DNA of 17,028 nucleotides, from assembly GCF_019127135.1 (NCBI RefSeq), contig NZ_JAHOEA010000064.1, forward strand, positions 1 to 17,028, in the 5' to 3' direction. The notes under the pieces were generated by a model that saw only the letters and a program-made list of their open reading frames with translations, was not told the origin of the DNA and searched no databases. This DNA comes from Segatella copri. Lineage in GTDB: Bacteria; Bacteroidota; Bacteroidia; Bacteroidales; Bacteroidaceae. Position numbers and translations under genes: made by a program. The first letter of the stretch is position 1, and each line of letters begins with the position of its first letter. Of this stretch, positions 1 to 16,863 are shown piece after piece.

Positions 1-185
1 AAATGCTCAATTCAGTTGTTTGCTTCCCTAATTAAGTTTTCGGACGACCTCCCCCATTCATTTTTTTTTATTACTTTTGCCCCAAGAAAATTCAAACAAT
101 CATGTAAACGGTTAATTTATATAATTACCTATTGATATAGTAAAAACGGAATAAACAAATAGACTTAACTAAACTCTTTTAATAG
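1..185 (+). promoter_or_regulatory. Leader and possible promoter of the DUF3575-DUF3868 unit
   Basis: This stretch holds no gene that I can support. The box TACTTTTG at 72-79 matches the Bacteroidetes -7 consensus TAnnTTTG, and would give an untranslated leader of about 100 bases before the ATG at 186. I find no TTG about 20 bases upstream for the -33 element, so the assignment is weak. The sequence just before the ATG is AT-rich with no Shine-Dalgarno, as is normal in Bacteroidales. Confidence 0.35.
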
Positions 186-761
186 ATGGTGAAACGATTA
201 ATTTTAGCTATAGTGTTACTCTTATTTGTATCTCTAGCTAATTATGCGCAAAACACGGGAGTAAAGTCCAACCTCTTATATTGGGCTACAACAACTCCTA
301 ATCTCGGTGTCGAGACTGCCTTAGGCAAGAAGCATACCGCTCAGGTATTCTTTGGCTTCAATCCTTGGAAACAGTCCGGTGGCGACCAGTCAAGCCTTCG
401 TCATTGGCTTTTGCAACCAGAATACCGTTACTGGTTCTGCCAGAGCTTCAATGGCTGGTTCTTGGGTGTTCATGCCATGGGCGGACAGTTTAATGCAGGA
501 GGAGTGAAGTTACCCCTTGGCATTTTCAAATCTCTACGTGACCATCGCTATGAAGGATGGTATGTAGGTGGTGGTGTGACCGCTGGTTATCAATGGCCTC
601 TTTCCAAGCACTGGAACCTGGAAACCTCTGTAGGTTTCGGATATGATTATATCCAGTACGACAAGTTCAAGTGCGGTGCCTGTGGCGAGAAGGAGAAGTC
701 ATCTCATGACAACTACGTGGGTCCTACCAAGGCAGCCATTTCTCTTATTTATATGTTGTAA
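186..761 (+). CDS. DUF3575 family outer-membrane protein
   Basis: A 191-residue protein with a signal peptide (residues 1 to about 22, hydrophobic core LILAIVLLLFVSLA, probable signal peptidase I cut near YAQ). The mature start SNLLYWATTTPNLGVE is the typical opening of DUF3575. The end, with a CxxC pair (CGACGE) followed by NYVGPTKAAISLIYML, is its typical close. The body alternates aromatic and glycine-rich segments, as in a small outer-membrane beta-barrel; that fold is inferred. DUF3575 genes are commonly found beside DUF3868 genes upstream of Bacteroidales fimbrial subunits, as here, and the next gene starts 17 bases downstream, so the two are probably co-transcribed. The biochemical role is unknown; a part in outer-membrane assembly or anchoring of the fimbria is a context guess. 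Length is complete for the family. Confidence 0.85.
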   Translation: MVKRLILAIVLLLFVSLANYAQNTGVKSNLLYWATTTPNLGVETALGKKHTAQVFFGFNPWKQSGGDQSSLRHWLLQPEYRYWFCQSFNGWFLGVHAMGGQFNAGGVKLPLGIFKSLRDHRYEGWYVGGGVTAGYQWPLSKHWNLETSVGFGYDYIQYDKFKCGACGEKEKSSHDNYVGPTKAAISLIYML

Positions 762-778
762 CTCATTAAACATAATCT

Positions 779-2203
779 ATGAGTATGAAAGATTTTAAGA
801 ACTACATATTATTATTCAGCTCTCTTTTGATGGCTATGCCTCTTGCAGCCCAGGATTGCAAGAGTCTCAAGTTGGCTGCCGATAAGATTCAGGTATCTAA
901 TGTACAGATGTCTCATTACAATGACCTGGTTACGGTTGCGATGGATTTGAATCTCGACTCCCTGGATCTCCCTACCAACAACCAGCTTGTCTATACTCCG
1001 ATGATCAAGCATAAGGGTGAGCTGCTCAAGATGCCGGAGATTGTTATCAACGGCAGAAGACAGCAGATTATGTATGACCGTGGAGTAGGAAAGAAACAGT
1101 TGCAGCTTTCACCTCAAGCACTGGTGGTGAAGCGAGACAACAAGAAGCAGCAGACCGTGAAGTATCTTGCTTCAGTTCCTCTGTCTTCTAAGGAAAGAAA
1201 CTACGATTTGGATATTCACGAAGACCTCTGCGGTTGTGGTGATCTGCAGGACGGCAATGATTTCACGGTTTCTCGCCGTCGCCAGCCGGTAGCTTCCTTC
1301 GTCCGTCCGGAGGTAGAGATAATCAAGGTCCGTCATCTGGATAAGCGCGCTTATATCGATTTCCCGGTAGACCGTATAGAACTGCATCCTGATTACCGCC
1401 GTAATCCGGAACAGTTGGATAGCATCATCCGCACCATCAATGCATTGAAGGAAGACAGGAACCTCGAAGTGAGCGGCATCAACATTCATGGTTATGCATC
1501 ACCTGAGAGTCCTTACACCCATAATGATTATCTGGCAAAGAACCGTGCCAAGACGCTGACCGAATATGTGCGCCGGATGGTGAAGTTGCCAAACAACCTC
1601 TTCACGGTTTCTTCTACTCCAGAGGATTGGGATGGTCTGATAGCTTATATTAAAGGTAGCAACCTGGAGCATAAGGATGCCATTCTGGCGATTATTGCCG
1701 ATAAGAGTCTGAATCCGGATGCCCGCGAGTTGAAGATTAAGAAGCAGTATCCTTCAGAGTATCGCTTTATGCTCGACACCTGGTATCCAGCCCTCCGCCA
1801 TTCCGACTATCACATTACTTATAAGGTGAAACCTTTCGATGTGGAAGAGGCAAAGGAGATTATCAAGACCAAGCCACAGCAGTTGAGCCAGGAGGAGATG
1901 TTCATGGTAGCCCAGACTTACGAGCCAGGCAGCAAGGAGTTTAATGAAGTGATGGAGATCGCCGTCCGCATGTTCCCAGAGAATGAGACAGCGAATCTGA
2001 ATGCAGCCATAACCCGCTTGAATGCCGGTGATGCAGATAATGCGAAACAATATCTCGACAAGGCTGGAACCAGTGCCGATGCCCAGAATGCCCGAGGGGT
2101 CTATGAGATGCTGAAGGGCAACGAGAAGCAAGCTCGTTATTATCTGGAGCAGGCAGCCAAGGCAGGTATTGCTTCTGCAAAAGAAAATTTACAGAATCTA
2201 TAA
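779..2203 (+). CDS. DUF3868 / OmpA-like protein with C-terminal TPR-like repeats
   Basis: A 474-residue exported protein. Residues 1 to about 24 form a signal peptide ending PLAAQ; C27 is not in a lipobox. Residues about 25-170 resemble the DUF3868 beta-rich domain. Residues about 175-345 resemble an OmpA-like peptidoglycan-binding domain: the strand with HGYASPESP starts at G238 and is followed by NDYLAKNRAKTLTEYV, the usual motif helix. The last 100 residues or so (SKEFNEVMEIAVRMFPENE, then LNAGDADNAKQYLDKAG and KGNEKQARYYLEQAAKAG) read as TPR-like helices. A second in-frame ATG lies two codons in (785) and is equally plausible as the start. The pairing with DUF3575 suggests a periplasmic or outer-membrane partner tied to peptidoglycan. 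A scaffold role for the downstream fimbria is inference. Confidence 0.82.
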   Translation: MSMKDFKNYILLFSSLLMAMPLAAQDCKSLKLAADKIQVSNVQMSHYNDLVTVAMDLNLDSLDLPTNNQLVYTPMIKHKGELLKMPEIVINGRRQQIMYDRGVGKKQLQLSPQALVVKRDNKKQQTVKYLASVPLSSKERNYDLDIHEDLCGCGDLQDGNDFTVSRRRQPVASFVRPEVEIIKVRHLDKRAYIDFPVDRIELHPDYRRNPEQLDSIIRTINALKEDRNLEVSGINIHGYASPESPYTHNDYLAKNRAKTLTEYVRRMVKLPNNLFTVSSTPEDWDGLIAYIKGSNLEHKDAILAIIADKSLNPDARELKIKKQYPSEYRFMLDTWYPALRHSDYHITYKVKPFDVEEAKEIIKTKPQQLSQEEMFMVAQTYEPGSKEFNEVMEIAVRMFPENETANLNAAITRLNAGDADNAKQYLDKAGTSADAQNARGVYEMLKGNEKQARYYLEQAAKAGIASAKENLQNL

Positions 2204-2447: not shown

Positions 2448-4265
2448 ATGAAGAAAACTTTATTATTTTCCGTTGCATTGGCGGGGCTGATGCTCGGTTC
2501 TTGTTCAAGTAGTGATGATTTGAATGGTGGTGGTAACAACACAGGTTTCAATGAGACTGGTAAGGGATATATTAATATCTCTTTGAACTTGCCTACACAG
2601 GGTAAGAATGTATCAAGAGCAGCAAATGATGTGACTGCAGATGGTGATGTTGATGAGTATAATGTGAAAGATGCTGCTTTGCTTTTGTTTGCAGGTTCAA
2701 ATGAAAATGATGCTGTATTTCAAGGAGCATATAACTTGGAAGGCTTGAAAAAAGATATTAGTGCTAATGCGCAGATTTCTACCCAATTAACTAAGGTTCA
2801 AGAGATTAGTTCTATTTCTGCATCTGGTAAAATCTATGCTTTTGTTCTTGTTAATAAAGGCACTAAGATTATCGTAGGTACTGATCATACTATAACCGTT
2901 AATGGTACTGCGTTCAGTGGTAATTTCTCTGATTTCTCTAAGCTTGAAGTTAATGGTGCTTTTGTTAAAGATAACTTGATGATGACTAATGTTCCTGTTG
3001 TAACTAAACCAGGTACTGCAGCATTTGATGATGCAACAGTTTTGGCTGATGTAACTACATCTATTTTTAAGACAGAAGCAGAAGCAAAAGCTAATCCTGC
3101 TGCTGATATTTTTGTTGAGCGCGTAGCTTCTAAGGTTACATTAGGTCAGACTGGTTCTGGAACTTCAATAGAAACTCTTTCTGCTGATGGTACACCTGCT
3201 AAGAATTTTAAATACACTTTGGAGGGTTGGAACTTGGCTAATGTAAATAAGTCTTCTTATTTGGTTCGTCAATATGATAATTCATGGAAAGACTTGAAAT
3301 CTGACGGTACTGATTTCCTCACTGGTGCTGATAAATCAGCTTTTGACGCTAATCCTTATCGTTTTGCAGGTATAAAATTGATTAAGACTAATGAGTCATT
3401 AAATCCTGCTGCTAATAAGTATCGTACATATTGGGGAAAGGATATTAATTATACGAATGATGCTCCATTTGCTTCGGATGCAATTGTAGGGGATGCGGAT
3501 TTGACATTAGAAAAGGATGCTAGTACCTATTGTTATGAAAATACCTTTGATGTAGCTCATCAGAATGTTTGTAATACTACTACTGCTATTGTAAAGATGA
3601 AGATTACTCCTGATTCTTATACAGATGGTACTACTTTCTATACAATTAATGGAGGTAAAGATGTTGTTTATTCATTAGCAAATGCAAAAACAAAGGTGGG
3701 TAATCAGTTCTTGGCTGAGAATACTGAGTCTTCTTTGAAGACTAAATATTTCTCTACTGTTACTGAGGCTGGTAAGATTAAGGTGTCTGATGTTGAATTT
3801 TCAGATAAAGCTGGTGCGGTTACTTTCACTAAGCTAGTTTTGACCTTTACACCAACTGCTACAGGTAGTGCAACAAAAACTGTTAATGTTACAGATGCTG
3901 CTGTATTAACAGCTCTTGCTAACAATATCAAGGTTGTAGAATATAAGGATGGTTATTCTTATTATAATATCTTGATTAAGCACTTTGGTGATGAGCTTAC
4001 TCCTTGGAATCCTTCTACAAAAACTTCAGGTATTTCATACCCATCTTCTAACGAAGCTAATTGGTTAGGTCGTTATGGTGTGCTTCGTAACAACTGGTAT
4101 GATTTGGATATTACTGGTGTAAGTCGACTTGGTGCAGCAACTCCAGAGGAACTTGATGTAAAGAATGATCCTACGCCAGATGATAATTTGAAGAGTTACA
4201 TCTCTGTCAAGATCAACGTCCTCTCTTGGGCTAAGCGTACACAGGGTGCAATCCTCGGTCAGTAA
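2448..4265 (+). CDS. Mfa1-like major fimbrial subunit (fimbrillin precursor)
   Basis: A 605-residue lipoprotein precursor. The signal ends in the lipobox LGSC (C19), then an S/D/N/G-rich linker and the first strand GYINISLNLP. A candidate processing site VSR57|A58 follows, matching where Mfa1/FimA precursors are cut by an Arg-specific protease to free the groove for strand exchange. DVDEYNVKDAALLLFAG is the usual N-terminal core strand. Near the C-terminus the family motif VLRNNWYDL (R547) leads to the last strand SVKINVLSWAKRTQ, the likely donor strand. Mfa1 homologues are usually about 450-600 residues, so this is long but complete. It is the first gene of the operon, 53 bases before the anchor gene, as expected for a shaft subunit. 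The body has A/T-ending codons while the last 80 bases or so are markedly richer in G+C (32 of 60 at 4201-4260), suggesting a mosaic gene. Confidence 0.85.
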   Translation: MKKTLLFSVALAGLMLGSCSSSDDLNGGGNNTGFNETGKGYINISLNLPTQGKNVSRAANDVTADGDVDEYNVKDAALLLFAGSNENDAVFQGAYNLEGLKKDISANAQISTQLTKVQEISSISASGKIYAFVLVNKGTKIIVGTDHTITVNGTAFSGNFSDFSKLEVNGAFVKDNLMMTNVPVVTKPGTAAFDDATVLADVTTSIFKTEAEAKANPAADIFVERVASKVTLGQTGSGTSIETLSADGTPAKNFKYTLEGWNLANVNKSSYLVRQYDNSWKDLKSDGTDFLTGADKSAFDANPYRFAGIKLIKTNESLNPAANKYRTYWGKDINYTNDAPFASDAIVGDADLTLEKDASTYCYENTFDVAHQNVCNTTTAIVKMKITPDSYTDGTTFYTINGGKDVVYSLANAKTKVGNQFLAENTESSLKTKYFSTVTEAGKIKVSDVEFSDKAGAVTFTKLVLTFTPTATGSATKTVNVTDAAVLTALANNIKVVEYKDGYSYYNILIKHFGDELTPWNPSTKTSGISYPSSNEANWLGRYGVLRNNWYDLDITGVSRLGAATPEELDVKNDPTPDDNLKSYISVKINVLSWAKRTQGAILGQ

Positions 4266-4318
4266 TTTGAGGGAATTATAAAACGATAAAATATAGAAAA
4301 CAATAATTGATTAGCGAT

Positions 4319-5398
4319 ATGATAGCGCAGAAGATAAATAAATGGTTAAAGGGTGTCATGGCAGCTGCCATGACCCTGACCGTCGCGACCTCATGCCACG
4401 ATATGTGGCACCAGGATTACAGCGATTGTCCTAATGGTGTATATGTGAAGTTTAAGTATGATTATAACCTCCAGCGTGCCGACATGTTCAACGACCATGT
4501 TGGACAGGTAACGCTGTATGTATTCGACGAGAACGGAAACTATATAACCCAACAGACCGAGACGAATTCTGCGCTATCATCGCCTCTCAAAGACCCAAAT
4601 TATGTGATGCACGTCGAGAACCTGCAGCCAGGTAAATATCAGTTCCTTGCCCTTGCCGGACAGAATGCTTACGCCGACCAGTTAACTTCAGGTCGTGCCA
4701 AGTTCGTTCGTACCGCTCCATCGGCTACAGGAGATAAGATGCAGAAACTGGAAGTGAATCTCGATCATGAAAATAGGGGAGAGTATGATGAGGTTGTCAA
4801 CAACAGCCTTCCTCTCGATACCCTCTGGCATGGTAAACAGCTGGAGGCAGTAGAGGTATCATCCTCAAAACCTTCTTATGCAACCATCCCTCTGGTGCGT
4901 GATACCAAGAAGATCAATGTGGCGCTCCGTGACCTTGACTCTCCACAGGATATGGATGTCAACGACTACACGATGACCATCGAAGACCATAATGCCCGCA
5001 TCCTTTGGGATAACTCTCTCGATGAGAGCCGTAAACTCATTTATACCCCTCATGCCACATGGAATACGGTAGATGAGGACGAGCAGGGCAAGATAGCCCA
5101 TGCTGACTTTATGACTTCCCGTATTCTGAAGCACGAAGATTACAACCAGGATGGCCGACTCCTGATTAAGAGTAAGGAGACCGGAAATACGGTAGTCAAT
5201 GTAGACCTGCCAGACCTCTTGAGTCGTCTTCGCACCAGCGAGGAGTACAGTTATAGTGCACAGGAATTCCTAGACCGTGCCTACGATTACAAACTTCAGT
5301 TCTTTATTCAGGGTGGCAAGCTCAAGTATTGCTACATCACCATCAGCGTGAATGTACTGAGTTGGAGCAAGCGCATCCAGTTCGAAGAACTCCATTAA
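4319..5398 (+). CDS. FimB/Mfa2 family fimbrial anchor lipoprotein
   Basis: A 359-residue protein from the ATG at 4319; an in-frame TTG at 4307 would add four residues but is less likely. The signal peptide ends in a relaxed lipobox ATSC (C26). The mature start DCPNGVYVKFKYDYNLQRADMF, then VGQVTLYVFDENGNYI, is diagnostic for the FimB/Mfa2 family, which anchors the fimbria to the outer membrane and limits its length. LQPGKYQFLALAG is another family strand. No SRA site follows the first strand, unlike the three fimbrillins here, consistent with a subunit that keeps its lipid. The C-terminus SVNVLSWSKRIQ nearly copies the major subunit's final strand, so the anchor may supply the donor strand for the first shaft subunit (inference). 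Codons are richer in G+C than in the gene upstream (32 of 60 at 4921-4980). Confidence 0.9.
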   Translation: MIAQKINKWLKGVMAAAMTLTVATSCHDMWHQDYSDCPNGVYVKFKYDYNLQRADMFNDHVGQVTLYVFDENGNYITQQTETNSALSSPLKDPNYVMHVENLQPGKYQFLALAGQNAYADQLTSGRAKFVRTAPSATGDKMQKLEVNLDHENRGEYDEVVNNSLPLDTLWHGKQLEAVEVSSSKPSYATIPLVRDTKKINVALRDLDSPQDMDVNDYTMTIEDHNARILWDNSLDESRKLIYTPHATWNTVDEDEQGKIAHADFMTSRILKHEDYNQDGRLLIKSKETGNTVVNVDLPDLLSRLRTSEEYSYSAQEFLDRAYDYKLQFFIQGGKLKYCYITISVNVLSWSKRIQFEELH

Positions 5399-5443: not shown

Positions 5444-6799
5444 ATGTTTAAAATGAAAACTATAACCCTCTCATTGCTAGCCATTTTGCTGGTTATGTCG
5501 TTTGCATCCTGTGCAAGTGACACTACTAGTGATTTGCCTCTGCCAAGCAAAGATATGAAGGCATATCTGCAGGTAAAGGTAACGGTGGAAGGTAGTGGAG
5601 ATACACGAGTGAGTAGGGCAACTAAAGGACCTCAAGGAGGTGAAAGCGGAGATGATAGAGAACCAGGAATCAATCATGAAAATGATGTCAATTCTCTTGC
5701 TGTCTTGCTATATGAATCTGATAAAAATGACCTGTCGGAAGCTGATGCTACAATAGATTATGTATATACATTCACCAATTTAAATAAGGTTACAACTTCT
5801 TCCGGCAGCGATGCAACTTATACTACCGTTCCAAGAGAAATAGATGCATCAATTGTCGGCAAGAATTATCATGTGATAGTGATTGCCAATGCAGACGATA
5901 TGACTTCCAGATGTAAAGGAAAGATTAGTGAAGTAAGAGATTTGCAGATGTCGAAGGTGTGCACCCGAGATGCTGATATTACAAAGTTCTCAAACTTCAT
6001 CATGTCATCAAAGAAGGATGCTATGATAGATTTCACCAAGGAAGGTTCAGAAACAGATCCGTATCAGGTAGATGTAGACATTGAGCGCTTGGCTGCCCGT
6101 ATCGACATCATTCCAAATGCTACTTTTGATGGCACCAGTCAAGGTTATTATTATAACGTAATGGATGGAACAAATGTAATAGGTGGTTTTAAGCTTGAAT
6201 CTGTAACTCCTACCAAGGTTATGACATCAGGAGAATACCTGATAAAGCGAGTATCTTCAGATAAAGATGTATCTACAGTTACTTATTTCGGCCAAGAAGT
6301 AATGAATCCTACAACCAAGGCTTCTACTAATTATGTGGTTTGTCCATGGACAAAGAATCGTACAGGTCTTACTCTCGCAGAAGCCGAAGGCCCTGCATCT
6401 CTATATAATGTAAAGAAGACAACTTCTACCAGTACAGCTGTAGGAGAAGCATCTTACATCCTCGATTATCTGATGGAGAATACGACCACCGATAATGCCG
6501 AGACTTATTCTACAGGTCTTATCTTTAAAGGCAAGTATTACGAGTCTTCCGAATGGGATGCAACCACAAAGAAGCCTAAGACTGGTTTTGCTGGAACAGA
6601 AAAGGAATATACCTATACACTCCGTCATAGCGACCCTTCTGGAAGTGGAACCACCGCTGACCCGATGCATTTTGGTGTTGTTCGCAACAACATCTATCAG
6701 GTAAAGGTAGATGGTGTAGAAGGAAAGTCTAAAGGTATCAAGTTGACCATACATGTAGTCCCTTGGGCACATTACGACCATGGGGAAGTAATATATTAA
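5444..6799 (+). CDS. Mfa1-like accessory fimbrillin lipoprotein
   Basis: A 451-residue precursor (or 448 from the second ATG, at 5453). The lipobox is FASC (C23). The first strand AYLQVKVTVEG is followed by a candidate maturation site VSR58|A59, the same VSRA found in the major subunit, then a G/E/D-rich linker. ENDVNSLAVLLYES is the core strand of Mfa1-type fimbrillins. Near the end, HFGVVRNNIYQVKVDGV (R414) is the conserved RNNxY motif, and IKLTIHVVPWAHYDHGEVIY closes the protein. This last strand differs from the NVLSW ending shared by the shaft and anchor proteins, so the protein may sit at the tip or as a minor subunit (inference). It starts 45 bases after the anchor gene, in the position of accessory genes mfa3-mfa4 of P. 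gingivalis; I cannot assign one-to-one orthology. Confidence 0.78.
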   Translation: MFKMKTITLSLLAILLVMSFASCASDTTSDLPLPSKDMKAYLQVKVTVEGSGDTRVSRATKGPQGGESGDDREPGINHENDVNSLAVLLYESDKNDLSEADATIDYVYTFTNLNKVTTSSGSDATYTTVPREIDASIVGKNYHVIVIANADDMTSRCKGKISEVRDLQMSKVCTRDADITKFSNFIMSSKKDAMIDFTKEGSETDPYQVDVDIERLAARIDIIPNATFDGTSQGYYYNVMDGTNVIGGFKLESVTPTKVMTSGEYLIKRVSSDKDVSTVTYFGQEVMNPTTKASTNYVVCPWTKNRTGLTLAEAEGPASLYNVKKTTSTSTAVGEASYILDYLMENTTTDNAETYSTGLIFKGKYYESSEWDATTKKPKTGFAGTEKEYTYTLRHSDPSGSGTTADPMHFGVVRNNIYQVKVDGVEGKSKGIKLTIHVVPWAHYDHGEVIY

Positions 6800-6831
6800 A
6801 CACTAAGATTAATTTACAAAGTATAACTAAA

Positions 6832-8265
6832 ATGAGAAAACATATAATGAAATATATGGCTTGCCTGGTGATGCTGCTTCTGACTTTTGCAGCATGTTCG
6901 CCTGATAGTGATGCTTCTGATCCGGGAAGTATCACCAACAAGACATATACTCTCCATTTTAATCTGTCTCCAGTATCAGGAAGTTCTGCTTCTTCCCGTG
7001 CAGAAACTAATACTGCAAGAACTCCCGATTCATGGGAGGGCGGTTCTAAAGAAGAGAACATGAAGAGTTGGACAGTTGTCTTTGTAAAGTCTGATGGAAC
7101 GGTAGCGAAAGTTGTCAAGCAGCCATCCGTAGAAGAAGGCAAAGAGGAAGATGATGTAATAGTTACCGGTTTGGAAGCAGAAACCAAATATACGGTCTAT
7201 TCTTTTGCCAATATATCAGATGCTGATCTCGGTACGATTACGGAGGGTTCTCCTTCTCCTAACTTCGATTCCAAATCATTTGCTGTCAATGGTAATGATA
7301 TGGATATTAAAGCGAATGGTATCCCTATGAGTAATAAACAGGTGGTAACTATCGGCTCTGACGGCCAACCGGATGTCAAGGATTTATATGTAGTAAGAAT
7401 GCTATCCAAGATTACGCTCAAGTTCCGCAACATGACAGGTGAAGATATTACCGTAAAGAATGTAAGTATCAGCGATATTACAAGCAATCCTACTACAGGA
7501 GCAAATATCAAGCTGCTTCCTGCAAACAATGTTGTTTCATCTACGAATGTTGCCCAAACACCAAATTTGGTAGAAAATGCTAAAAGAGATGATTTTACAC
7601 ATGCGATTACACCTGGTTTGACAATAGCCAAGAATACAACCGATTATGATACAGATAACAGCCGTTCGGTTTCTTTCTATGTCAACGAGAGTCAAGCCGG
7701 CAATGCTTATCCTTACTTTGTAGTAACGCTCGTAACGAATGTTGGTTCACAACGATATTTCATGTATACCGACTGGAATCAGATAGCCCGCAACGACCAT
7801 CATGTCTTAAAGTTGGCGCTGAGCGATTACAAGCTACGCCTCAAGGTAGAGGACTTTGGATCTATCGGTTCGGCTCCGTCATTGAAAGATGACGGAAAAC
7901 AGCTCAATCTCATTTTCCATGATTTAGAGGAGTTCCATATCATTCCTTCTGTTACGAAGTATAGTGATGAATCATCTGTCTCTTTCACTAATCTTGAGTG
8001 GACGAGACTCTCGGAATCGGAGACTGGAGCAGAATCAAAAGCCTTCAGTACGATACCATCTATCGTTTCTAGCAAAGACAGAATTGAGGCGGAAACCAAA
8101 GGTGAGTTAGGCAAGAAGATAGGTCCAATCATCTATCAGCTTTCTGTGAAAGTTAATGATGGAGTTGATTCACCAACGCTGGTATATCGGGTAGCCATCT
8201 CTCAGGATTTAACCTGGTACTCAGCAAGGCGCCATAACGGTGCATTTTGGATATGTAAACAATAA
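6832..8265 (+). CDS. Fimbrillin-like lipoprotein with an extra C-terminal domain
   Basis: A 477-residue protein. I choose the ATG at 6832 because it gives a clean lipoprotein signal (MRKHIMKYMACLVMLLLTFAAC, C22) and leaves a 32-base gap; an in-frame TTG at 6763 would overlap the previous gene and bury the signal. The first strand YTLHFNLSPVSG leads to a candidate cut SSR56|A57, aligned with the VSRA sites of the other subunits. GIPMSNKQ and VRMLSKITLKFRNMTGE are typical fimbrillin core strands. IARNDHHVLKLAL (about residue 318) matches the RNNxY position, but instead of ending soon after, the chain goes on for about 150 residues with a further beta-rich segment closing in ICKQ. That extension suggests a tip or adaptor role, perhaps joining the fimbria to the giant protein next door. 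No adhesin domain is recognised. Confidence 0.7.
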   Translation: MRKHIMKYMACLVMLLLTFAACSPDSDASDPGSITNKTYTLHFNLSPVSGSSASSRAETNTARTPDSWEGGSKEENMKSWTVVFVKSDGTVAKVVKQPSVEEGKEEDDVIVTGLEAETKYTVYSFANISDADLGTITEGSPSPNFDSKSFAVNGNDMDIKANGIPMSNKQVVTIGSDGQPDVKDLYVVRMLSKITLKFRNMTGEDITVKNVSISDITSNPTTGANIKLLPANNVVSSTNVAQTPNLVENAKRDDFTHAITPGLTIAKNTTDYDTDNSRSVSFYVNESQAGNAYPYFVVTLVTNVGSQRYFMYTDWNQIARNDHHVLKLALSDYKLRLKVEDFGSIGSAPSLKDDGKQLNLIFHDLEEFHIIPSVTKYSDESSVSFTNLEWTRLSESETGAESKAFSTIPSIVSSKDRIEAETKGELGKKIGPIIYQLSVKVNDGVDSPTLVYRVAISQDLTWYSARRHNGAFWICKQ

Positions 8266-8292: not shown

Positions 8293-11200
8293 ATGTTTAA
8301 GTCTAAGATTTTTAATAGTGTAATGAGATATATGTTGGTAGCAATGCTTGCATTGCTGCCAAATGCTATATGGGGATTAACAGAGACAACTGAAACCAAC
8401 ATTTCAAATGGTTCTTCCTTTACTTTGTCTGTTACTACACTTAGCAAATATGTAAAGGGTAGCGATTATTGGGCATTGTCTGTCATTGAACCAGATGGTA
8501 CAATAGTGGATGACTTGTCAGCATGGACTGTAAGCCAAAATGGATTCAATGACCATTCAAAATCAGGACAATATTTAAAGGTAAATAAAACTGGTTATGA
8601 TTTGACATATCAATTTTTAACCCTTACCGCTCCTTCTACTATAAGCAGTCTAGCACACTATAAGATTATTCTTTGGGTTTCTAAGAATGAGGCTTTTTAT
8701 AATAATCCTAGTGAAGTCTTAGCAGAGAAGAAGGTAACGTTTGATATAATTTCTAAGGATGAACTTCCTACTTTTAAGACATACTTTGGTCCAAACAGTG
8801 CTGAGAAATTAGTAACTGTTGCAGATGCAAATTTGCAAGGAGGTTCCATTTCTATTACTGATTTAGGTGAAACACTTGCAGACTTTGCAATTTGGGATAA
8901 AAATGCGGATTCTAATGGCTTAATATTGAGCAAGTATCCATTCTATCTCCGTCTATCTGTTGTTGATAAAGATGGAAATCCCGTTACAGATCTTAGTGGT
9001 TTTACTTTAAAAAGAAATGGTAATATAATTTCTGATACTCAATTAGGTGATCATGAATGGAATCTCGCATGTTATAAAAATGCTAAAGGCGTATATTGTC
9101 TTCGTGATAAGAAAGAAGGTGCTTTTGTTTCTTTCTCAGATCTCAACTTTACCATATCTTGTCCTAGTGATAAGAACATCAATGATTATAACGTTGTGGT
9201 ATATGTTGGTAATGAACAACCAAGTTTTTCTGGCAATCTGATTATGGAAGAGCCTACATTGGTAGGTAAGGTGAACTATACCATTTTGAGTCAAACCACA
9301 TTTGATGCAATTAAGTTGACTCCTTCTGTAGAGCCTACAGGTGCTGCAGTCCGAAATGTTTCTTCCATTGTTTTAGGTACTAATTTAAATGTAGATCTTA
9401 CTTCTAAAGATAATTTGAAGTTTATCAAGGAACAGTTAGGCTTATCTGAAACTCAGAATTTCGGCAAGTTATATGTTCGTTGGGCTATTAAAAAGAAGGA
9501 TGGCTCAGCCATAACCGGTGTGTCTTCTAAAGGAGCCCTAAAGCAACAGGAAGGTATGTACTGGACCTGGTATTCTGATGATGCATCAAGTTCTTTTGCT
9601 AATGCATTGAATGCTCATTTTGTAGTTCCAGAAGGACTGGATATTAATGATGTTGACATTTCTTGCGTCATCTCTGATGAAACGCCAACCACTCAGTATG
9701 GTTTCGTCACAATTGAACCTACTTTGAAGGCAAAGGTTAATGTGCAACTTTTGGATAAGTACAGCATGCCTTTCAATCATTATGTAGGCCATGCTAATAC
9801 TGCATTAGACGAAAAGGGTATGCAGCAGACTGCTGAATGGGAGTACTATGTCTATGTGAAAGATGCTAATGAGAAAGTAGAGTTAGTGCTGCCTTTCGAT
9901 AAGTATGAAAATAGCGGTGACCCTCTTGAGCCACAGGGATATTTCAGATGGTATAATTTTACAAAAGATATAGCTAGTGATAATTTAACTCCTAACACAG
10001 AAACTGGCACAACTTTTCTGAATCATATAAAATCAGGAAGTAACGACTATGGACTGTTTGCTTACAAACTTACTGCACCTCCGACAAGCAGTAATATAGG
10101 TGTTACATATACTGCACCAGCAGGAGCTTCATCTGATGAATGGGCTGGTGAAGATATTGCCTGTGATGTGAGCCGTTACATTGATGGTTTGGATGCAACA
10201 AAAACTTATCTGGTACACGAGCCTACGCTCTCTATCAGATACATTTTCCATATCCGTTCTGCTAAGCAGTTAGCAGACGATATTATGAATACGGCTATTG
10301 GAAAAAATACTCAAAGAGAAGGTTATAGAACTTATGAGGATGGTAAGTATTTAACAGTTGGTATGAAGGATCAAAGTTCTATTGTGACTCTTCGACTGGA
10401 TTTGTCAGATGCTACGAAATATTATTTTCATCCATTAGTTAATGGTGTATATAAGACAGGTACTACTACAGATGGTACTACCATCTATGGTTTCACGCAT
10501 CGAGTATATTATGCTGATGAAAAGGATAAACTCGTAGAATCAGATTTCGATGTAACAAAATTATGTAAGGCAACTAAGATTGAATGGTGGGCATACGATA
10601 AGAACAAGACATATTGTCTAAAGTTAAATGATTTTGGGAACGAGAGTAGTCGTTTCTTTAATTTGACGATGGGTAAGCTTAACGACAAATGGATGCCTGC
10701 ATCTATGACAGGATCTACTAAGAATTATACATTTACATATGGAGATCCAGTATACATCGTTGCATATGCAATGGATGATGACGGAAATCGTTGCCCTATA
10801 GCCAACTTTGATGTTCGATTCATGAATAATCATCCGATGACTAAAGATGAAATCGTTAAAGCAGGATTGAATAATAGACTTATTAGTTATCTTGATGAGC
10901 ATTATAAAATGGCTACCAAGCCAATTACGTTTGATGATGATGATGTAGAACAGACTGTGGCTGCTCCTACAACTCCTGATAACAACCAGGACCGTTTACC
11001 ATCTAAATGGAATCGCCGTGCTTATAGTTTCGTATATCGTGATTTGATCGACTACGATGCAACTAATTTTAATGGTTTCAAGACTATCGGTCATTCTCCA
11101 CTTCATGGAGATTATTGCTTGTATAAGTCTGCCAATGTTCCTGGTATATCCGGTGCAGGATCTTCACAAACCAACGGATATCTTTGGTGGGATGGTGGAA

Positions 11201-14200
11201 AGTTATATGATAAGACTTATGAGATGACCAATGGTTCTCAGTATGGCCATTTTCTCTATGTGGATGCATCTGATGAAAGTAGAAAAATCGCAGCATCAGA
11301 TTTCACTGCAGATCTTTGTACAGGACAGCAGCTTATCTTCATTGCGGGTATTGCAAACATGACTGACAAGACTAAGCCACAGATTATGTTTAAACTATAT
11401 GGTGTTAAAAGAAATGTCAATGGTGATATTGTTGATAAACACCTGATACATAGTTTTTCATCTGGTGATTTTACTACTAATGTAGAAAGTTTGGAATCTG
11501 CAACTTGGTACCAGGTATATGGTAAGATTACTTTGCAAAAAGAGTCAAATGTAGAGCAGTATTCAGATTTCCGACTGGAGATAGATAATTACTGTAGCAA
11601 TACTGATGGTGCCGACTATGCCGTAGATGATATCCGTATGTATCTTGCACCTGCTAAGGTTCAGGTGATTCAGGAGAAGCCTATTTGTGATGGTGCTGCA
11701 ACGGGAAATATCAAGCTGAAGATTCGTGCTATCCACGAGACTTTGAATGCTATTACCGGACATAAAGGACAGACTAAAATATACTTCCGTTTTGTCGATG
11801 AGGAAGGTAAGCCTGTAGAAGGTATTGATGAGAGTAATCCTTACTATCGGACGGAACTGGTTAATACATCTGATGGAACAAAAATTGAATACAAGAGCAA
11901 TAAATATGGAACTGTTGACGTATTCGATTCAGAGGGAACTTGCAACCAGTATACTATAGATGATACTCCTATGATCGAGAAGGATAGCGAAGGTGAAACT
12001 TATATCGTTATCAGTAATAGATATTATCCTCTTAAAGTAGGTAAGAAGTATTACGTATCTGTAGCTACAGAAACTCCTGATGCAACAGGCAACTCTAATT
12101 GGGGTTCACCTGCTGAAGTCTGCTCGTTGTACAGTAGCTGGTTTGAAATGGTTAGCCAGCATCCAATTATTACTGATACTTATGGTAACGTCATTACGGA
12201 TTATAAGATTCCTTGCGATCAAGCAGACAACTATTCGGTAAATATCAAGGGACAATTGGTTACAACTGACCCTAATACAGGCGGTAAGATAACATTGGAT
12301 AATGTGGAGTTCTTATGGTATATTGATGATCCTGCAGTAGCTTCCAACAAACTGAACGAAACAGCCAGCAACACAATCACTATCAGCAAGGAAAAGCTTC
12401 CTTTGGGTGAAATACATAAAATCTTTATGTTGCCAAAAGGAACTCCAAATGCAGATGGCTATATTCCATACGAAATCAATGGTAAGACCTATCTGTTGTG
12501 TACTAGTGCAATACCAGTACCATTGCGTGTAATGAAGGATGGTCCGCAGCTAAACTTCGGATTCAATAATGTGGATTATCCATTTAAAGATAACAGCTAC
12601 GAAGCTTCATTGCGTATCGGATTGCCACAGATAAAGAAGTTATTGGAAAAAACTTCCCAGGGTTTTCTCCAGGTACCATTGCATAGCGCAAGTTACAAGA
12701 CTGGTGTTACGGATAAGACTTTGACATTCATTGATGATAGTAAGACTGGTGCAGATAAGACTTCTGTAGATGTTTATGTTGCAACAACTAATGACCCTCT
12801 ATGGGATGCTTCTTTATTGAAGAAACCTGTTGCAAAATTGAGTTCTAGCACTCTTTCTGAAATCGTGCCAGATGTGCAGTCTACCCTCGACCTCAAGTTC
12901 TCTGACGCTGCCGTAGAGAATTTCCATGAGGGATACTACTACGAGCTTAGATTCGCCTTCGAGCAGAAAGCAGTAGCAACAGGTGGAACAAGCTGCCCAG
13001 GCGAGTCTTATCTCAAGGTAAAGATTGTACCGGAGTTCATTACCTGGTATCCTACTGCGGATGGTGGTATGAATGCCAACTGGAATAATGATGATAACTG
13101 GCATCGCTCATCATCTACTGAATTGTATGATGATAAGTATGAGGATTATCAGGCTTATGGTAATGCATCTGGTATTACAGCAAAGGTGAATATTCCTACG
13201 CTGAACAGCTATGTGCCAATGAAGTTTACCAAGGTTACTATTGATAACTTGAAGGGTTTGCCATTCCCTGACCTCGGTAATATCGTTTATCGTAGTACCA
13301 ATAAGATTGCTACCCAGCTGACCAATGGTAAGGGTAATGAGGCTACGAAGTATATCCAGTACGATATCATGGCGTTCTGGGATGAAGCGGCTACTGATAA
13401 GGGATTGGAATCGGGTAATCTGAAGTGCGAGAAGTTCTATGGCAATACCTGCCATCAGATTTACTTCAAGCCTCAGGGCGAGCTTCGCGACCAGTGCTAT
13501 CTGATATATGACAAGGCTTGGGTAGAGAAGGAACTAGTGCCTAACAAGTGGTACACCATGGCTTCACCTCTGCAGTATATCTACGCCGGTGATATGTATG
13601 TGCCAGCAAAGGATGGCCGACAGGAAACCAAGGCGTTTGAGGATATCACGTTTGATACGAATGTATATAGCCGAAGCAAGTATCCGGTTTATCAGAGAGC
13701 TTGGATGAAGAGTGATGTGAAGGAAATCACACCTAAGAGTGATTATCCTGCATCTCATTACCCAAGTGTAGCTGCTCCAGAAAATGTTGATATGAATCTC
13801 GGCTACTGGAGCCATGTATATAATAAGGTGGATGAGAGCTATGCCGATGCCGCAGATGGAACCTTCGGTGGTTTCTCTATCAAGGCGGGTAATGCGCTCT
13901 TGCCAAAGGATCAGACAAAGAAGGCGCTCCTCCGTTTGCCAAAGGCTGATACCAGCTATCAGTACTTTGATTATAATGGAACAGGGAACTCTTCAAGCGA
14001 AACTTCGGTTACGAAGGATCCTAAAGGTCGTGGCAGACTTCTCGTTGCTTTCAATAACGATGAGAAGCATCTCGCAGAGAAGACTCAGAGTTTAGGAACT
14101 GATAACAATAGCGGTTTCTATCTCGTGGCCAATCCATATACCTGTTCTATCTCGATGGCTAAGTTCTTCGAGGCTAATACTGGTTTGCAAAAGGCTATAT

Positions 14201-15057
14201 GGATGGTAGAGAATGGCGAGGTGAAGGCGATTTCCAATGCAGAATTGGATAAGCAGAACTACGCTATCCAGCCTACCCAGTCGTTCTTTGTCAAGAAGAA
14301 AGAAGGCGAAATGGTAGAAAATGTAAGATTCACGTCTACGATGTGTATAGACCGCACTATTACTCCTGGCCTTCGGATGGCATCAGACTATGTCAAGAGC
14401 ATTGAAGCAACGACAGAGAATTCCAACGGCCAGATTTCAAAGGCACGCATCGCTTTGCGTCCGGAGGCTTCTGCCGACTATGATGACCAGGAGGATGTGG
14501 ATCTCTTGTATGATCAGAACCTCAAGGATGTTCCGCAGGTTTATACCGTTGCCGGCAATGAGGCGGTGGCTGTGAATGCAGTTCCTGAGTTGTCCTGGAT
14601 TCCGCTCGGTATCGTGAGCCAGCAGGCTGAAGAGGTTTCACTTACCCTGAAGGGTGTGAACAAACTCGATGCTCCGGTTTATCTCTACGATGCTGCATCG
14701 GCAAGCTTTACCGAACTTCATGATGGCGAGGCTGTGAAGGTGAAGGCGGGTGACCACGGAAGATACTTCCTCACCCAGACCCGTACCTCAACCGGCATCG
14801 ACCGCATGGAGGCTGAAGAGCAGAGCGCACCGGTAAAGGTTTACTCACCTGCTGCCGGCATGATTGTTGTTTCTGCCTTGGGTGGTGAGAAGCTCGACAG
14901 GGTTCAGGTATTTACATTGGATGGCAAGATGGTTCACAGTTATCAGTTGCCTGACAAGCAGAGAATGATTCTCCGTGTTCCATCCGGCATTTACATTGTG
15001 AAGGCATCTACCCAGTCCTGTGCTCAGGCTAAGGGTCAGAAGATTGCCGTAAGATAG
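8293..15057 (+). CDS. Giant modular surface protein with T9SS-like C-terminal domain
   Basis: A 2254-residue protein from the ATG at 8293 (a TTG at 8284 is the alternative). It has a signal peptidase I-type signal ending NAIWG and no lipobox. Four related beta-rich modules run over residues about 35-655, each closing with a strand of the type EPTL-x-x-K-V (E145, where it is degenerate, then E320, E475, E643). Residues about 925-1120 resemble a jelly-roll/MAM-like domain (WWDGG, FLYVDASDES, FRLEIDN, YAVDDIRMYLAP). Residues about 1583-1606 (TWYPTADGGMNANWNNDDNW) and 1943-1990 (FYLVANPYTCSI, AIQPTQSFFVKKKEG) match segments common in Bacteroidetes T9SS cargo. Residues about 2181-2254 (VQVFTLDGKMVHSY, VPSGIYIVKA, QKIAVR) resemble a type A T9SS sorting domain. 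Last gene of the fimbrial operon, it may be a tip adhesin comparable to Mfa5. Base composition rises near 12860. Confidence 0.8.
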   Translation: MFKSKIFNSVMRYMLVAMLALLPNAIWGLTETTETNISNGSSFTLSVTTLSKYVKGSDYWALSVIEPDGTIVDDLSAWTVSQNGFNDHSKSGQYLKVNKTGYDLTYQFLTLTAPSTISSLAHYKIILWVSKNEAFYNNPSEVLAEKKVTFDIISKDELPTFKTYFGPNSAEKLVTVADANLQGGSISITDLGETLADFAIWDKNADSNGLILSKYPFYLRLSVVDKDGNPVTDLSGFTLKRNGNIISDTQLGDHEWNLACYKNAKGVYCLRDKKEGAFVSFSDLNFTISCPSDKNINDYNVVVYVGNEQPSFSGNLIMEEPTLVGKVNYTILSQTTFDAIKLTPSVEPTGAAVRNVSSIVLGTNLNVDLTSKDNLKFIKEQLGLSETQNFGKLYVRWAIKKKDGSAITGVSSKGALKQQEGMYWTWYSDDASSSFANALNAHFVVPEGLDINDVDISCVISDETPTTQYGFVTIEPTLKAKVNVQLLDKYSMPFNHYVGHANTALDEKGMQQTAEWEYYVYVKDANEKVELVLPFDKYENSGDPLEPQGYFRWYNFTKDIASDNLTPNTETGTTFLNHIKSGSNDYGLFAYKLTAPPTSSNIGVTYTAPAGASSDEWAGEDIACDVSRYIDGLDATKTYLVHEPTLSIRYIFHIRSAKQLADDIMNTAIGKNTQREGYRTYEDGKYLTVGMKDQSSIVTLRLDLSDATKYYFHPLVNGVYKTGTTTDGTTIYGFTHRVYYADEKDKLVESDFDVTKLCKATKIEWWAYDKNKTYCLKLNDFGNESSRFFNLTMGKLNDKWMPASMTGSTKNYTFTYGDPVYIVAYAMDDDGNRCPIANFDVRFMNNHPMTKDEIVKAGLNNRLISYLDEHYKMATKPITFDDDDVEQTVAAPTTPDNNQDRLPSKWNRRAYSFVYRDLIDYDATNFNGFKTIGHSPLHGDYCLYKSANVPGISGAGSSQTNGYLWWDGGKLYDKTYEMTNGSQYGHFLYVDASDESRKIAASDFTADLCTGQQLIFIAGIANMTDKTKPQIMFKLYGVKRNVNGDIVDKHLIHSFSSGDFTTNVESLESATWYQVYGKITLQKESNVEQYSDFRLEIDNYCSNTDGADYAVDDIRMYLAPAKVQVIQEKPICDGAATGNIKLKIRAIHETLNAITGHKGQTKIYFRFVDEEGKPVEGIDESNPYYRTELVNTSDGTKIEYKSNKYGTVDVFDSEGTCNQYTIDDTPMIEKDSEGETYIVISNRYYPLKVGKKYYVSVATETPDATGNSNWGSPAEVCSLYSSWFEMVSQHPIITDTYGNVITDYKIPCDQADNYSVNIKGQLVTTDPNTGGKITLDNVEFLWYIDDPAVASNKLNETASNTITISKEKLPLGEIHKIFMLPKGTPNADGYIPYEINGKTYLLCTSAIPVPLRVMKDGPQLNFGFNNVDYPFKDNSYEASLRIGLPQIKKLLEKTSQGFLQVPLHSASYKTGVTDKTLTFIDDSKTGADKTSVDVYVATTNDPLWDASLLKKPVAKLSSSTLSEIVPDVQSTLDLKFSDAAVENFHEGYYYELRFAFEQKAVATGGTSCPGESYLKVKIVPEFITWYPTADGGMNANWNNDDNWHRSSSTELYDDKYEDYQAYGNASGITAKVNIPTLNSYVPMKFTKVTIDNLKGLPFPDLGNIVYRSTNKIATQLTNGKGNEATKYIQYDIMAFWDEAATDKGLESGNLKCEKFYGNTCHQIYFKPQGELRDQCYLIYDKAWVEKELVPNKWYTMASPLQYIYAGDMYVPAKDGRQETKAFEDITFDTNVYSRSKYPVYQRAWMKSDVKEITPKSDYPASHYPSVAAPENVDMNLGYWSHVYNKVDESYADAADGTFGGFSIKAGNALLPKDQTKKALLRLPKADTSYQYFDYNGTGNSSSETSVTKDPKGRGRLLVAFNNDEKHLAEKTQSLGTDNNSGFYLVANPYTCSISMAKFFEANTGLQKAIWMVENGEVKAISNAELDKQNYAIQPTQSFFVKKKEGEMVENVRFTSTMCIDRTITPGLRMASDYVKSIEATTENSNGQISKARIALRPEASADYDDQEDVDLLYDQNLKDVPQVYTVAGNEAVAVNAVPELSWIPLGIVSQQAEEVSLTLKGVNKLDAPVYLYDAASASFTELHDGEAVKVKAGDHGRYFLTQTRTSTGIDRMEAEEQSAPVKVYSPAAGMIVVSALGGEKLDRVQVFTLDGKMVHSYQLPDKQRMILRVPSGIYIVKASTQSCAQAKGQKIAVR

Positions 15058-15101: not shown

Positions 15102-15138
15102 AAGGGGGGAGCCAAAGCGTTGGCTTCCCCCTTTTTTT
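15102..15138 (+). terminator. Rho-independent terminator of the fimbrial operon
   Basis: AAGGGGGGAGCCAA (15102-15115) pairs with 15120-15133 around the four-base loop AGCG, giving a 14-bp stem with one G-T pair and no other mismatch. It runs straight into seven Ts (15132-15138). It lies 44 bases after the stop codon of the giant gene and would end plus-strand transcription. Confidence 0.93.
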
Positions 15139-15155
15139 AGCTTTATACTTTACTG

Positions 15156-15173
15156 AAGTTTCGCATGTGGTTC
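15156..15173. repeat. Near copy of the AAGTTTCGCA-GTGGTTC motif
   Basis: This copy has a T where the other copies have an A (base 15166). It begins 17 bases after the T-run of the operon terminator and marks the left edge of the repeat-rich block that contains the palindromes and the ATPase gene. Confidence 0.7.
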
Positions 15174-15179
15174 AAGTAC

Positions 15180-15373
15180 GGGCTGAAGGCCCAAAAGCTC
15201 CTAGCCCAGGGCATCGCCCTGGGTATAATGGCAATCAGCAAGTCGCCCTGTAAGGGCAAAAGCTTTCAAATACCTGGCAATATACAAAGCTTTTGCCCTT
15301 ACAGGGCGACAGGTTTGCGTCCATAAATACCCAGGGCGATGCCCTGGGCTAGGAGCTTCTGCCCTTTCAGGGC
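15180..15373. repeat. Nested palindromic (REP/BIME-like) intergenic element
   Basis: An outer perfect 31-bp inverted repeat (15195-15225 with 15328-15358) encloses an inner perfect 24-bp inverted repeat (15243-15266 with 15286-15309). The spacers are nearly symmetric: 17 and 18 bases between outer and inner arms, 19 in the centre. Each arm also forms its own hairpin: CCCAGGGC/GCCCTGGG in the outer arms and GCCCTgtaAGGGC-type in the inner arms. Flanking hairpins lie at 15180-15192 (GGGCtgaagGCCC) and 15361-15373 (GCCCTttcAGGGC; preceding base C15361 excluded if read strictly). The element lies between convergent genes. No gene is visible inside it. The architecture resembles clustered REP elements; a role in transcript ends, DNA structure or as a transposase-REP target is inference. 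Confidence 0.85.
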
Positions 15374-15384
15374 GTGTGGGGCTT

Positions 15385-15439
15385 ACTTGCGAAACTTGAA
15401 TACTTTACTTGCGAAACTTTACAAGGGAGTTTCGCAAGT
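15385..15439. repeat. Three copies of the ACTTGCGAAACT motif
   Basis: ACTTGCGAAACTT occurs at 15385-15397 and again 22 bases later at 15407-15419. An inverted copy AGTTTCGCAAGT lies at 15428-15439. The last two form a perfect 12-bp inverted repeat around a 9-base loop, ending 9 bases before the ATPase stop codon. There is no following T-run on either strand, so this is a hairpin but not a classical terminator. Confidence 0.85.
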
Positions 15440-15448
15440 CTCACTTAT

Positions 15449-16813
15449 TTACAATAATGATAATGCATAGAGAGGTAGAATGGTAACATGCCTTACTGCA
15501 TCGTGATCCTCCTTGTCTATATAATCAAACGCTCCAAAATTCTCTAGAGAGCACCGGAAGGCATTGGTGAGTTTCTTCTCTCTCATGAATAGCCAGAGAC
15601 TCTTCATGCCGCCTTGTGTTCCAGATTTGATTTCAATAGGAGTAATCTTCATTTTATGAATCTCCAGATAGTCTATCTCTGCCACACTTTTCCCCTTCTG
15701 TTCCCAGAAGAACATCTTCTGACGTTGGATACACGGTTTGTTTCGCAAAATCTCAAGTCCTGCAACCATCTCCGTAAGTCCACCTTTGTTGACAAGTTCC
15801 TGAGGAGTACCAGCCAAAATGAGTTCTATAAGTTGCTGCGCCAGGTTGCCTTCCAACTGAAGCACGGCCAGCAGTAATCCGGAATCCAGAAACAGTACCT
15901 TCATGCTCTTCTCATCTGCCTCTGCATCCAGAGGAATACCATTGCCCGAGGTAGAGACTACAGGAGTTACGATACCTGCCAGGGTCAATAAACGGAGTGC
16001 CTCCCTAATCTGCGAACTTTGATAGTCGGCTGATATTTGCTTGAATGTCAACTTTTCACCTGCCTGATGGCAGACACCACGCATCGTAGTGCGCAACAGA
16101 TCAGAATTGACTCTCTTCTTATATTTACTGAAATCATCTTCGTACGTCAGCACAATATCTTCCAGAATGTTCCTGCATCGGTTGAAGTCATGAGTACGTG
16201 TCCAGGCAAGCACAGATTCCGGCATACCTCCAACAAGCAGGTAAATACGGAAGTATTCCACGAGTTTATCATGGAAAGCCTGTTCTAGGGGACGATTTCC
16301 ACAAGCTTCATTTCGCATTTTTACTAGCCCCTCTTCATTATTGGCATACAAGAATTCATCGAATGTCATCGGGTACATAAAGAGAGAATGAATTCTTCCT
16401 ACTCCAAAAGTGGGAAGTTCCTGAAGTGTGAATTCAAGAAGTGAGCCTGCGGCGATGACATGCAGCTCAGGATAATCTTCCTTGAAAAACCGAAGAGCCA
16501 TAATGGCCTCTGGGCATTCCTGTATTTCGTCAAGGAAGAGGAGCGTCTTGCCTGCTTCTACAGGGACATTGATGTAACTGCTGATCTTTTCAGCTATTGA
16601 ACGCACATCAAGATCACCATGGAAAAAGGTTTTAATAGCTTTGCTGCGCTCAAAGTTCACTTCTGCAAAATACTTAAACTGCTTTCCAAAATGTTTAACT
16701 GCAGATGATTTTCCTACCTGTCGGGCACCACGAAGCAACAGCGGTTTTCGCATGGAATCTTCTTTCCATGCTATAAGCTGAGTATCTATATTTCTTTTTA
16801 TATATTCTGTCAT
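15449..16813 (-). CDS. AAA+ ATPase with C-terminal DUF4143 domain
   Basis: A 454-residue protein from the ATG at 16811-16813 (MTEYIKRNIDTQL, the usual start of this family); an upstream in-frame TTG near 16861 would run through the promoter box and is rejected. Near the N-terminus the Walker A loop GARQVGKSS is followed by Walker B LLFLDEIQECP and the sensor-like strand VIAAGSLLEF, then the family motif YPMTFDEFL. The C-terminal half is DUF4143-like: YLLVGGMPESVLAW, a winged-helix-like LRLLTLAGIV, and EIDYLE...ITPIEIKSGTQGG, which resembles a PD-(D/E)xK nuclease-fold motif. Family members occur in many copies in Bacteroidetes and have no firmly established function; a toxin-antitoxin or mobile-cassette link has been suspected. 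It is convergent to the fimbrial operon and flanked by repeats, so a functional link to the fimbria is unlikely. Confidence 0.9.
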   Translation of the reverse strand: MTEYIKRNIDTQLIAWKEDSMRKPLLLRGARQVGKSSAVKHFGKQFKYFAEVNFERSKAIKTFFHGDLDVRSIAEKISSYINVPVEAGKTLLFLDEIQECPEAIMALRFFKEDYPELHVIAAGSLLEFTLQELPTFGVGRIHSLFMYPMTFDEFLYANNEEGLVKMRNEACGNRPLEQAFHDKLVEYFRIYLLVGGMPESVLAWTRTHDFNRCRNILEDIVLTYEDDFSKYKKRVNSDLLRTTMRGVCHQAGEKLTFKQISADYQSSQIREALRLLTLAGIVTPVVSTSGNGIPLDAEADEKSMKVLFLDSGLLLAVLQLEGNLAQQLIELILAGTPQELVNKGGLTEMVAGLEILRNKPCIQRQKMFFWEQKGKSVAEIDYLEIHKMKITPIEIKSGTQGGMKSLWLFMREKKLTNAFRCSLENFGAFDYIDKEDHDAVRHVTILPLYALSLL

Positions 16814-16823
16814 ATCTATAATT

Positions 16824-16863
16824 ATTTGAATATCAGCAGCAAAGATAATTAAAATATTCAAAT
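16824..16863 (-). promoter_or_regulatory. Probable promoter of the ATPase gene inside an inverted repeat
   Basis: Read on the minus strand, TATCTTTG (16840-16847) is an exact TAnnTTTG -7 box, ending 26 bases before the ATG. No clear -33 TTG is seen at the usual spacing. The box lies in the 20-base loop of a perfect 10-bp inverted repeat, ATTTGAATAT (16824-16833) and ATATTCAAAT (16854-16863), which would suit binding of a dimeric regulator, possibly for self-control. Confidence 0.5.

Follow-up and report, generated by a model that had tools for sequence, protein, structure and literature searches.

The closest described counterpart of the system reported here is the Mfa1 fimbria of Porphyromonas gingivalis. 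Its component Mfa5 is exported by the type IX secretion system (T9SS), binds Mfa3 and is proposed to provide a link to Mfa1; strains in which any one of Mfa3, Mfa4 and Mfa5 is missing bear fimbriae without all three, and mfa5 is reportedly transcribed on its own (PMC5954841). The N-terminal half of Mfa5 contains a von Willebrand A (VWA) domain and two immunoglobulin (Ig)-like domains, and the solved structure ends at residue 664 (PMC7835359). A survey of 74 strains distinguished five mfa5 genotypes with a common C-terminal half and C-terminal domain (CTD), genotypes D and E being without VWA; in some strains mfa5 is present twice (PMC8313007). This studied case comes from one oral species, and our literature search, whose coverage of subscription papers was poor, returned neither a type V fimbria outside P. 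gingivalis with a terminal protein exported by the T9SS nor a switch of export route. Here we describe a 2254-aa open reading frame (ORF), g7 or "the giant", in a 17,028-nt stretch of Segatella copri contig NZ_JAHOEA010000064.1 (the window). It runs from an ATG at 8293 to a stop at 15057 on the plus strand, as the seventh and last of seven tandem plus-strand genes that make up a type V fimbrial operon.

We propose, with a probability of about 0.62, that the giant is a large tip adhesin of this fimbria, exported by the T9SS and joined to it through the product of the preceding gene, g6. We favour this reading because of the CTD of the giant, its conserved operon, its linkage to the T9SS markers SprA and PorV, its pairing with g6 and the Mfa5 precedent. 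The first four of these, together with a switch of export route in a related group of terminal proteins, constitute its support at the level of sequence, from which we infer export, tip location, an adaptor role for g6 and adhesion. The operon is laid out as follows.

186..761, plus strand: g1, DUF3575 outer-membrane protein, first gene of the operon (Pfam PF12099, E 3.3e-78)
779..2203, plus strand: g2, DUF3868/OmpA-like protein (PF12984, E 7.8e-8)
2448..4265, plus strand: g3, Mfa1-family major fimbrillin (NF038041, 199.3 bits, cut-off 130; PF15495)
4307..5398, plus strand: g4, Mfa2-type anchor pilin (PF08842, E 1.8e-58, 198.8 bits, cut-off 21.2)
5444..6799, plus strand: g5, FimA/Fimbrillin_C accessory pilin with a lipobox read by eye (PF15495, E 3.3e-7; PF06321, E 8.9e-5)
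6763..8265, plus strand: g6, 500-aa ORF adjoining the giant, accessory protein whose lipobox was read by eye
8293..15057, plus strand: g7, the giant, proposed T9SS-exported fimbrial tip protein
15102..15133, plus strand: intrinsic terminator-like site at the operon end (14 pairs, 8 of them G-C, then a T run)

The original prediction had placed the giant at the end of a fimbrial operon, and the family matches of g1 to g5, the terminator-like site about 45 bases 3′ of its stop and the opposite-strand position of the next gene, an AAA_14/DUF4143 ATPase at 15449-16861 (minus strand), agree with that placement. The giant is not a chance ORF: at least 7795 proteins match it at E ≤ 0.001, among the 7999 candidates to which scoring was limited, and the 120 matches listed cover 99-100% of the query. 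Its parts are these.

8293..8376, plus strand: Sec signal peptide, about residues 1-28, without a lipobox (judged by eye from the translation)
8380..10257, plus strand: series of beta modules in the N-terminal part, probably Ig-like (about residues 30-655; weak model)
8443..8742, plus strand: variable patch (residues 51-150); across 110 close relatives (P0012-P0121, the comparison behind each patch identity given here), identity to the window averages 57-61%
11140..11727, plus strand: conserved single-copy module, residues 950-1145 (the part first described as MAM-like)
12463..14826, plus strand: conserved C-terminal core, residues 1391-2178
14827..15054, plus strand: T9SS type A CTD, residues 2179-2254 (family model, sequence profile and fold)

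A T9SS-type C-terminus had been read in the sequence, and family model, sequence profile and fold together bear it out. The whole protein scores 23.6 bits against TIGR04183 (cut-off 23) over residues 2189-2242, its last 120 residues alone score 26 bits, and the same family matches at E ≤ 0.01 in 41 of 47 C-termini (the window and 46 relatives). The best fold matches of the CTD are T9SS substrates, the closest being the CTD of RemA, and the fold of the RgpB CTD is matched as well. Among close relatives the most conserved stretch of the giant is residues 2051-2250, with 96-98% mean identity to the window.

Linkage to the T9SS was followed through SprA and PorV only. SprA is present in 12/12 genomes of the first loci, and the S. 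copri genome G001 carries both markers. Of 201 genomes of the family to which this genome belongs, 155 have SprA (E ≤ 1e-20; 154 above the model cut-off) and 46 do not, and full-length giants were found in 22 of the SprA-positive vs none of the SprA-negative genomes (Fisher p 0.003, kinship ignored; 3 of the 22 were matched in two pieces, and at most 4 candidates were scored per genome). The family level was chosen because nearly the whole order is SprA-positive (233/247 genomes); the order-wide contrast was uninformative and was dropped. At order level, the core profile matches 53/247 genomes at E ≤ 1e-20, most of these matches spanning only about the last 320 positions, a tail cassette of wider distribution, and a genus search with the single giant protein gave 13/60.

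A second line of evidence comes from a related group of shorter terminal proteins (the ORFs read span 1181-1615 aa, most about 1420-1615), which have the second part of the core in common with the giants. A profile built without signal and tail recovered this group in 28 of 399 family genomes (E ≤ 1e-100), 17 of them SprA-positive and 11 SprA-negative; DUF3575 and/or DUF3868 genes lie upstream in 17/28 loci and were not recognised within the stretch fetched in the other 11. We read 18 proteins from 16 of the 17 SprA-positive genomes and 12 from the 11 SprA-negative ones. All 18 SprA-positive proteins begin with a signal peptidase I (SPI) signal by eye, and 17 extend 85-92 residues beyond a GRF/YxL motif; the remaining one (G671), a partial member, is odd in having a long branch and a C-terminus of its own. 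The 12 SprA-negative proteins all carry a lipobox by eye, with at least two acidic residues among the four after the cysteine in 11/12; nine end 2-4 residues past the motif and three (G324, G673, G741) before it. For L117 and L123 the residues past the motif, counted by the last match, are 85 and 3, and G416, split over two contigs, was covered by a profile match to its tail only. An automated lipobox pattern departs from these readings by firing on the SprA-positive G412 (SPI by eye; G496 is nearly the same there) and on the giants L002, L095, L097 and L100, and by missing the SprA-negative L127 and L128, both lipoproteins by eye.

SprA status was foretold from the protein alone in nine further genomes and was right in 9/9 (four with SprA, five without). 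PorV is above its cut-off in 20/20 SprA-positive genomes tested and in 0/11 SprA-negative ones, as well as in seven more giant-bearing genomes that the SprA search did not cover; in G372, G407, G425 and G508 the absence of SprA was read by elimination from the SprA list, and there too no PorV match reaches the cut-off (G425 has a weak one, 55.6 bits vs 250). A CTD model built from giants only matches 17/18 SprA-positive proteins at E < 0.001 and 18/18 at 0.05, and one of 12 SprA-negative proteins at E < 0.05, in a 16-position match; TIGR04183 alone, a weak test in this group, matches 3/11 and 0/7, respectively. In a tree built without the first 60 residues and the tail, the 12 SprA-negative proteins form a single clade with full support, so that the switch represents one evolutionary event and its match to SprA status counts once, not eleven times. 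Our guess is that this clade is Bacteroides.

These patterns suggest that the export route is an exchangeable part, and we hold it rather probable that such terminal proteins use the T9SS in genomes that have one and otherwise travel as surface lipoproteins, the giants representing the T9SS state. On this reading, which we think probable to the same degree, the tip must reach the surface but requires no particular machine. It also seems fairly likely that a lipobox with an acidic stretch resembling a lipoprotein export signal takes the place of the SPI signal, and an end after GRFxL that of the tail. The switch thus offers a natural experiment in how a fimbrial terminal protein changes its secretion machine.

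The partner of the giant is suggested by its surroundings. Loci were found by the giant alone and not by the operon, and 32 of the 47 giants in hand have at least 6 kb upstream; in these the upstream genes are g6 (31), g5 (31), g4/Mfa2 (29), g3/Mfa1 (23), g2/DUF3868 (23) and g1/DUF3575 (19). The window and part of the L001-L014 set supplied the gene models, and matches at those loci arise by construction; L095 and L097 are near-copies. Of the 38 giants with 1.5 kb or more of upstream sequence, 37 have g6 as the first recognised gene before them, and the remaining one follows another giant. At locus L012, two giants stand in tandem with no g6 recognised between them. In two genomes (G461 and G488; L109/L110 and L111/L133) g6 and the giant are doubled as a pair on one contig, and a third (G070) carries two g5-g6-giant sets on one contig (L135/L137), as if tips could be exchangeable. 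Across 23 operons, g6 distances correlate with those of the giant core after removal of g2, g4 and g5 (partial Mantel r 0.66, p 0.0005), followed by g5 (r 0.41, p 0.0005) and g4 (r -0.12). Judged from these patterns, g6 and the giant duplicate and diverge as a pair, and the strengths of co-divergence would place the parts in the same order as their genes: anchor, g5, g6, giant. The pairing points to g6 as a concrete adaptor candidate.

The same pairing bears on a different arrangement, in which the giant would be a T9SS-exported adhesin joined to the outer membrane by PorU, co-transcribed with the fimbria and not part of it. Gingipains with type A CTDs are anchored in the membrane, and the CTD of the giant is of type A and matches the RgpB CTD fold. 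We nonetheless consider membrane anchoring unlikely, though credible, since g6 and the giant are paired in duplication and divergence, g6 is almost always the nearest upstream gene, and the CTD-bearing Mfa5 is a component of Mfa1 fimbriae (PMC5954841).

Two points weigh against a g6-joined tip adhesin. Linked recombination of neighbouring genes would look similar to co-divergence, and the TIGR04183 score of the whole protein is barely above the cut-off. The latter would suit a CTD that is a relic in a protein leaving the cell by another path, a very improbable reading in our estimation: the strongest conservation among close relatives falls on the stretch that contains most of the CTD, its best fold matches are T9SS substrates, and the related group is without the tail where SprA and PorV are absent.

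Under the tip-adhesin proposal, pilins g3 to g6 would be exported as lipoproteins, cut and strand-exchanged into the filament, as established for type V fimbriae. The giant would pass the inner membrane through Sec and then be picked up by the T9SS through its CTD, as its tail and the presence of SprA and PorV in relatives suggest. It would join the fimbria via g6, the proposed adaptor, with its N-terminal modules pointing outward to bind a ligand. The two-route logic first proposed for the locus, lipoprotein export for pilins and T9SS export for the terminal protein, is in keeping with the signals read by eye, a lipobox in each of g3 to g6 (Cys19 in g3), and in the giant a CTD but no lipobox. 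A crude lipobox pattern fires on g3 in 21/23, g4 in 27/28, g5 in 21/30 and g6 in 22/31 ORFs, and also on 11/32 g2 and 10/57 g7-type ORFs.

The body of the giant was harder to assign. For residues 1-1190 the structure model is weak, with a mean predicted local distance difference test (pLDDT) of 57.4, and shows mostly strands where it is confident, and N-terminal matches to Ig-like folds have low Z. The repeated beta modules of the original prediction stood for three segments and not for the fourth and fifth: in a phmmer comparison whose database was the five segments only, residues 160-335 match both neighbours, 25-165 (E 1.9e-6) and 335-490 (E 6.9e-8), these two match each other weakly (E 0.05), and the fourth and fifth match no other segment (E 0.1 or worse). 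The jelly-roll/MAM-like domain found no library support and the structure model is poor there: over residues 950-1145, Pfam families each match at most one of 42 members, the window and 41 of 45 relatives (Laminin_G_3 one, CBM_4_9 one), the MAM family is absent among matches at E ≤ 0.1, and a solved-structure profile search of the same members gave nothing solid for MAM or jelly-roll folds. Of 47 fetched giants, 45 have a single copy of this module and two are truncated at contig ends. The predicted lack of a VWA metal-site domain was upheld, with no Pfam VWA family at E ≤ 0.1 in the giant; the profile of alignment A3 matched no solved structure at E ≤ 10, and since residues 846-1032 are poorly modelled, a very divergent VWA is possible.

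Divergence is concentrated toward the front. The closest named genome locus is that of S. copri iA622 (L001), where identity to the window is 92% in Mfa2, 47% in Mfa1 and 42% in g6, and 25% in the first 650 residues of the giant vs 71% in its core. A second variable patch lies within the conserved core, at residues 1451-1550 (window 12643-12942; 47-57% mean identity). As read across Bacteroidales loci, the operon is conserved and its terminal protein pairs a constant rear with a changing front. This front, and sizes of up to 3958 aa, look more like a binding part than like a factor acting mainly in the assembly or length of the tip complex, with adhesion secondary. We judge that role improbable, even though in P. 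gingivalis the loss of Mfa3, Mfa4 or Mfa5 removes all three (PMC5954841).

Some further observations concern the operon and its surroundings. The real start of g4 is probably downstream of the TTG in the ORF list, and that of g6 is probably an ATG near 6832-6847; g6 matches no Pfam family above cut-off. No inverted repeats of the kind expected for fimbrial promoter inversion were found in window positions 1-800 or 2150-2500, and no match to the Bacteroides-type promoter motif was found in the window. In one relative (L096:10750-12504, minus strand) the Mfa1 gene is divided between two ORFs and may be a pseudogene or reflect an assembly error, and two loci titled Clostridium sp. (L011, L014) hold a Bacteroidales-type fimbrial operon and SprA and are probably mislabelled metagenome bins. 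Just 3′ of the terminator, window positions 15145-15442 form a nested palindrome (49-nt arms at 88%, 25-nt arms at 100%; -110.6 kcal/mol as single-stranded DNA, z -19.7 vs shuffles) without an Rfam match, whose 13-base core recurs in only 1/228 fetched loci; it is perhaps a small mobile or repeat element. The ATPase gene beyond it has no BLAST match in the ORF set of S. copri locus L001.

Comparison with known systems places the giant among several kinds of terminal protein. Like the large DUF4906-type lipoproteins that end other Mfa1/Mfa2 operons, it is large and follows Mfa1, Mfa2 and an accessory pilin, but those proteins have a lipoprotein start by eye and no CTD match. They were met in the family of G009, in which 59/59 genomes have SprA and G009 itself carries a giant (L010). 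In the best 20 of 70 listed Mfa2 matches there (L174-L193, 7.7-16 kb each, the operon of G009 not among them), a 761-1186 aa protein lies downstream of Mfa2 in 20/20 loci, with a lipoprotein start by eye in 19 (the start in L174 is uncertain), and no listed operon-strand ORF matches the core or CTD model; of the two loci scanned for DUF4906, L175 is above and L190 below the cut-off. Lipoprotein-type and giant-type terminal proteins thus both exist in T9SS-bearing Bacteroidales, and the pattern is limited in that many type V operons end otherwise than with a giant. The giant also resembles SprB and RemA of Flavobacterium in its very large size and proposed T9SS export, RemA providing the closest CTD fold; SprB and RemA function in gliding and are not known from fimbrial operons.

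The likeness to Mfa5 (PGN_0291) is broader. Both have a T9SS CTD, are encoded by the terminal gene of a pilus set (after mfa1-4 in P. gingivalis), are much larger than the pilins, combine a constant C-terminal half with a changing N-terminal half and occur in tandem copies in some genomes. The giant differs in length (2254 aa, with complete relatives of 1635-3958 aa, vs 1228 aa) and in lying 27 bases after g6, unlike mfa5 with its reportedly separate transcription (PMC5954841). It also differs from Mfa5 genotypes A-C in that no VWA was found; genotypes D and E, as surveyed, have none either (PMC8313007), so this absence fails to separate the giant from Mfa5. By analogy the giant may work like Mfa5 without being filed as Mfa5, the likeness being one of design and not of compared C-terminal-half sequence. 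Together these comparisons suggest that the type V fimbriae of Bacteroidales, including those of Segatella, have a standing alternative to lipoprotein terminal proteins in ones exported by the T9SS, and the giant is a larger variant of an Mfa5-like design whose distribution is wider than one studied case would imply.

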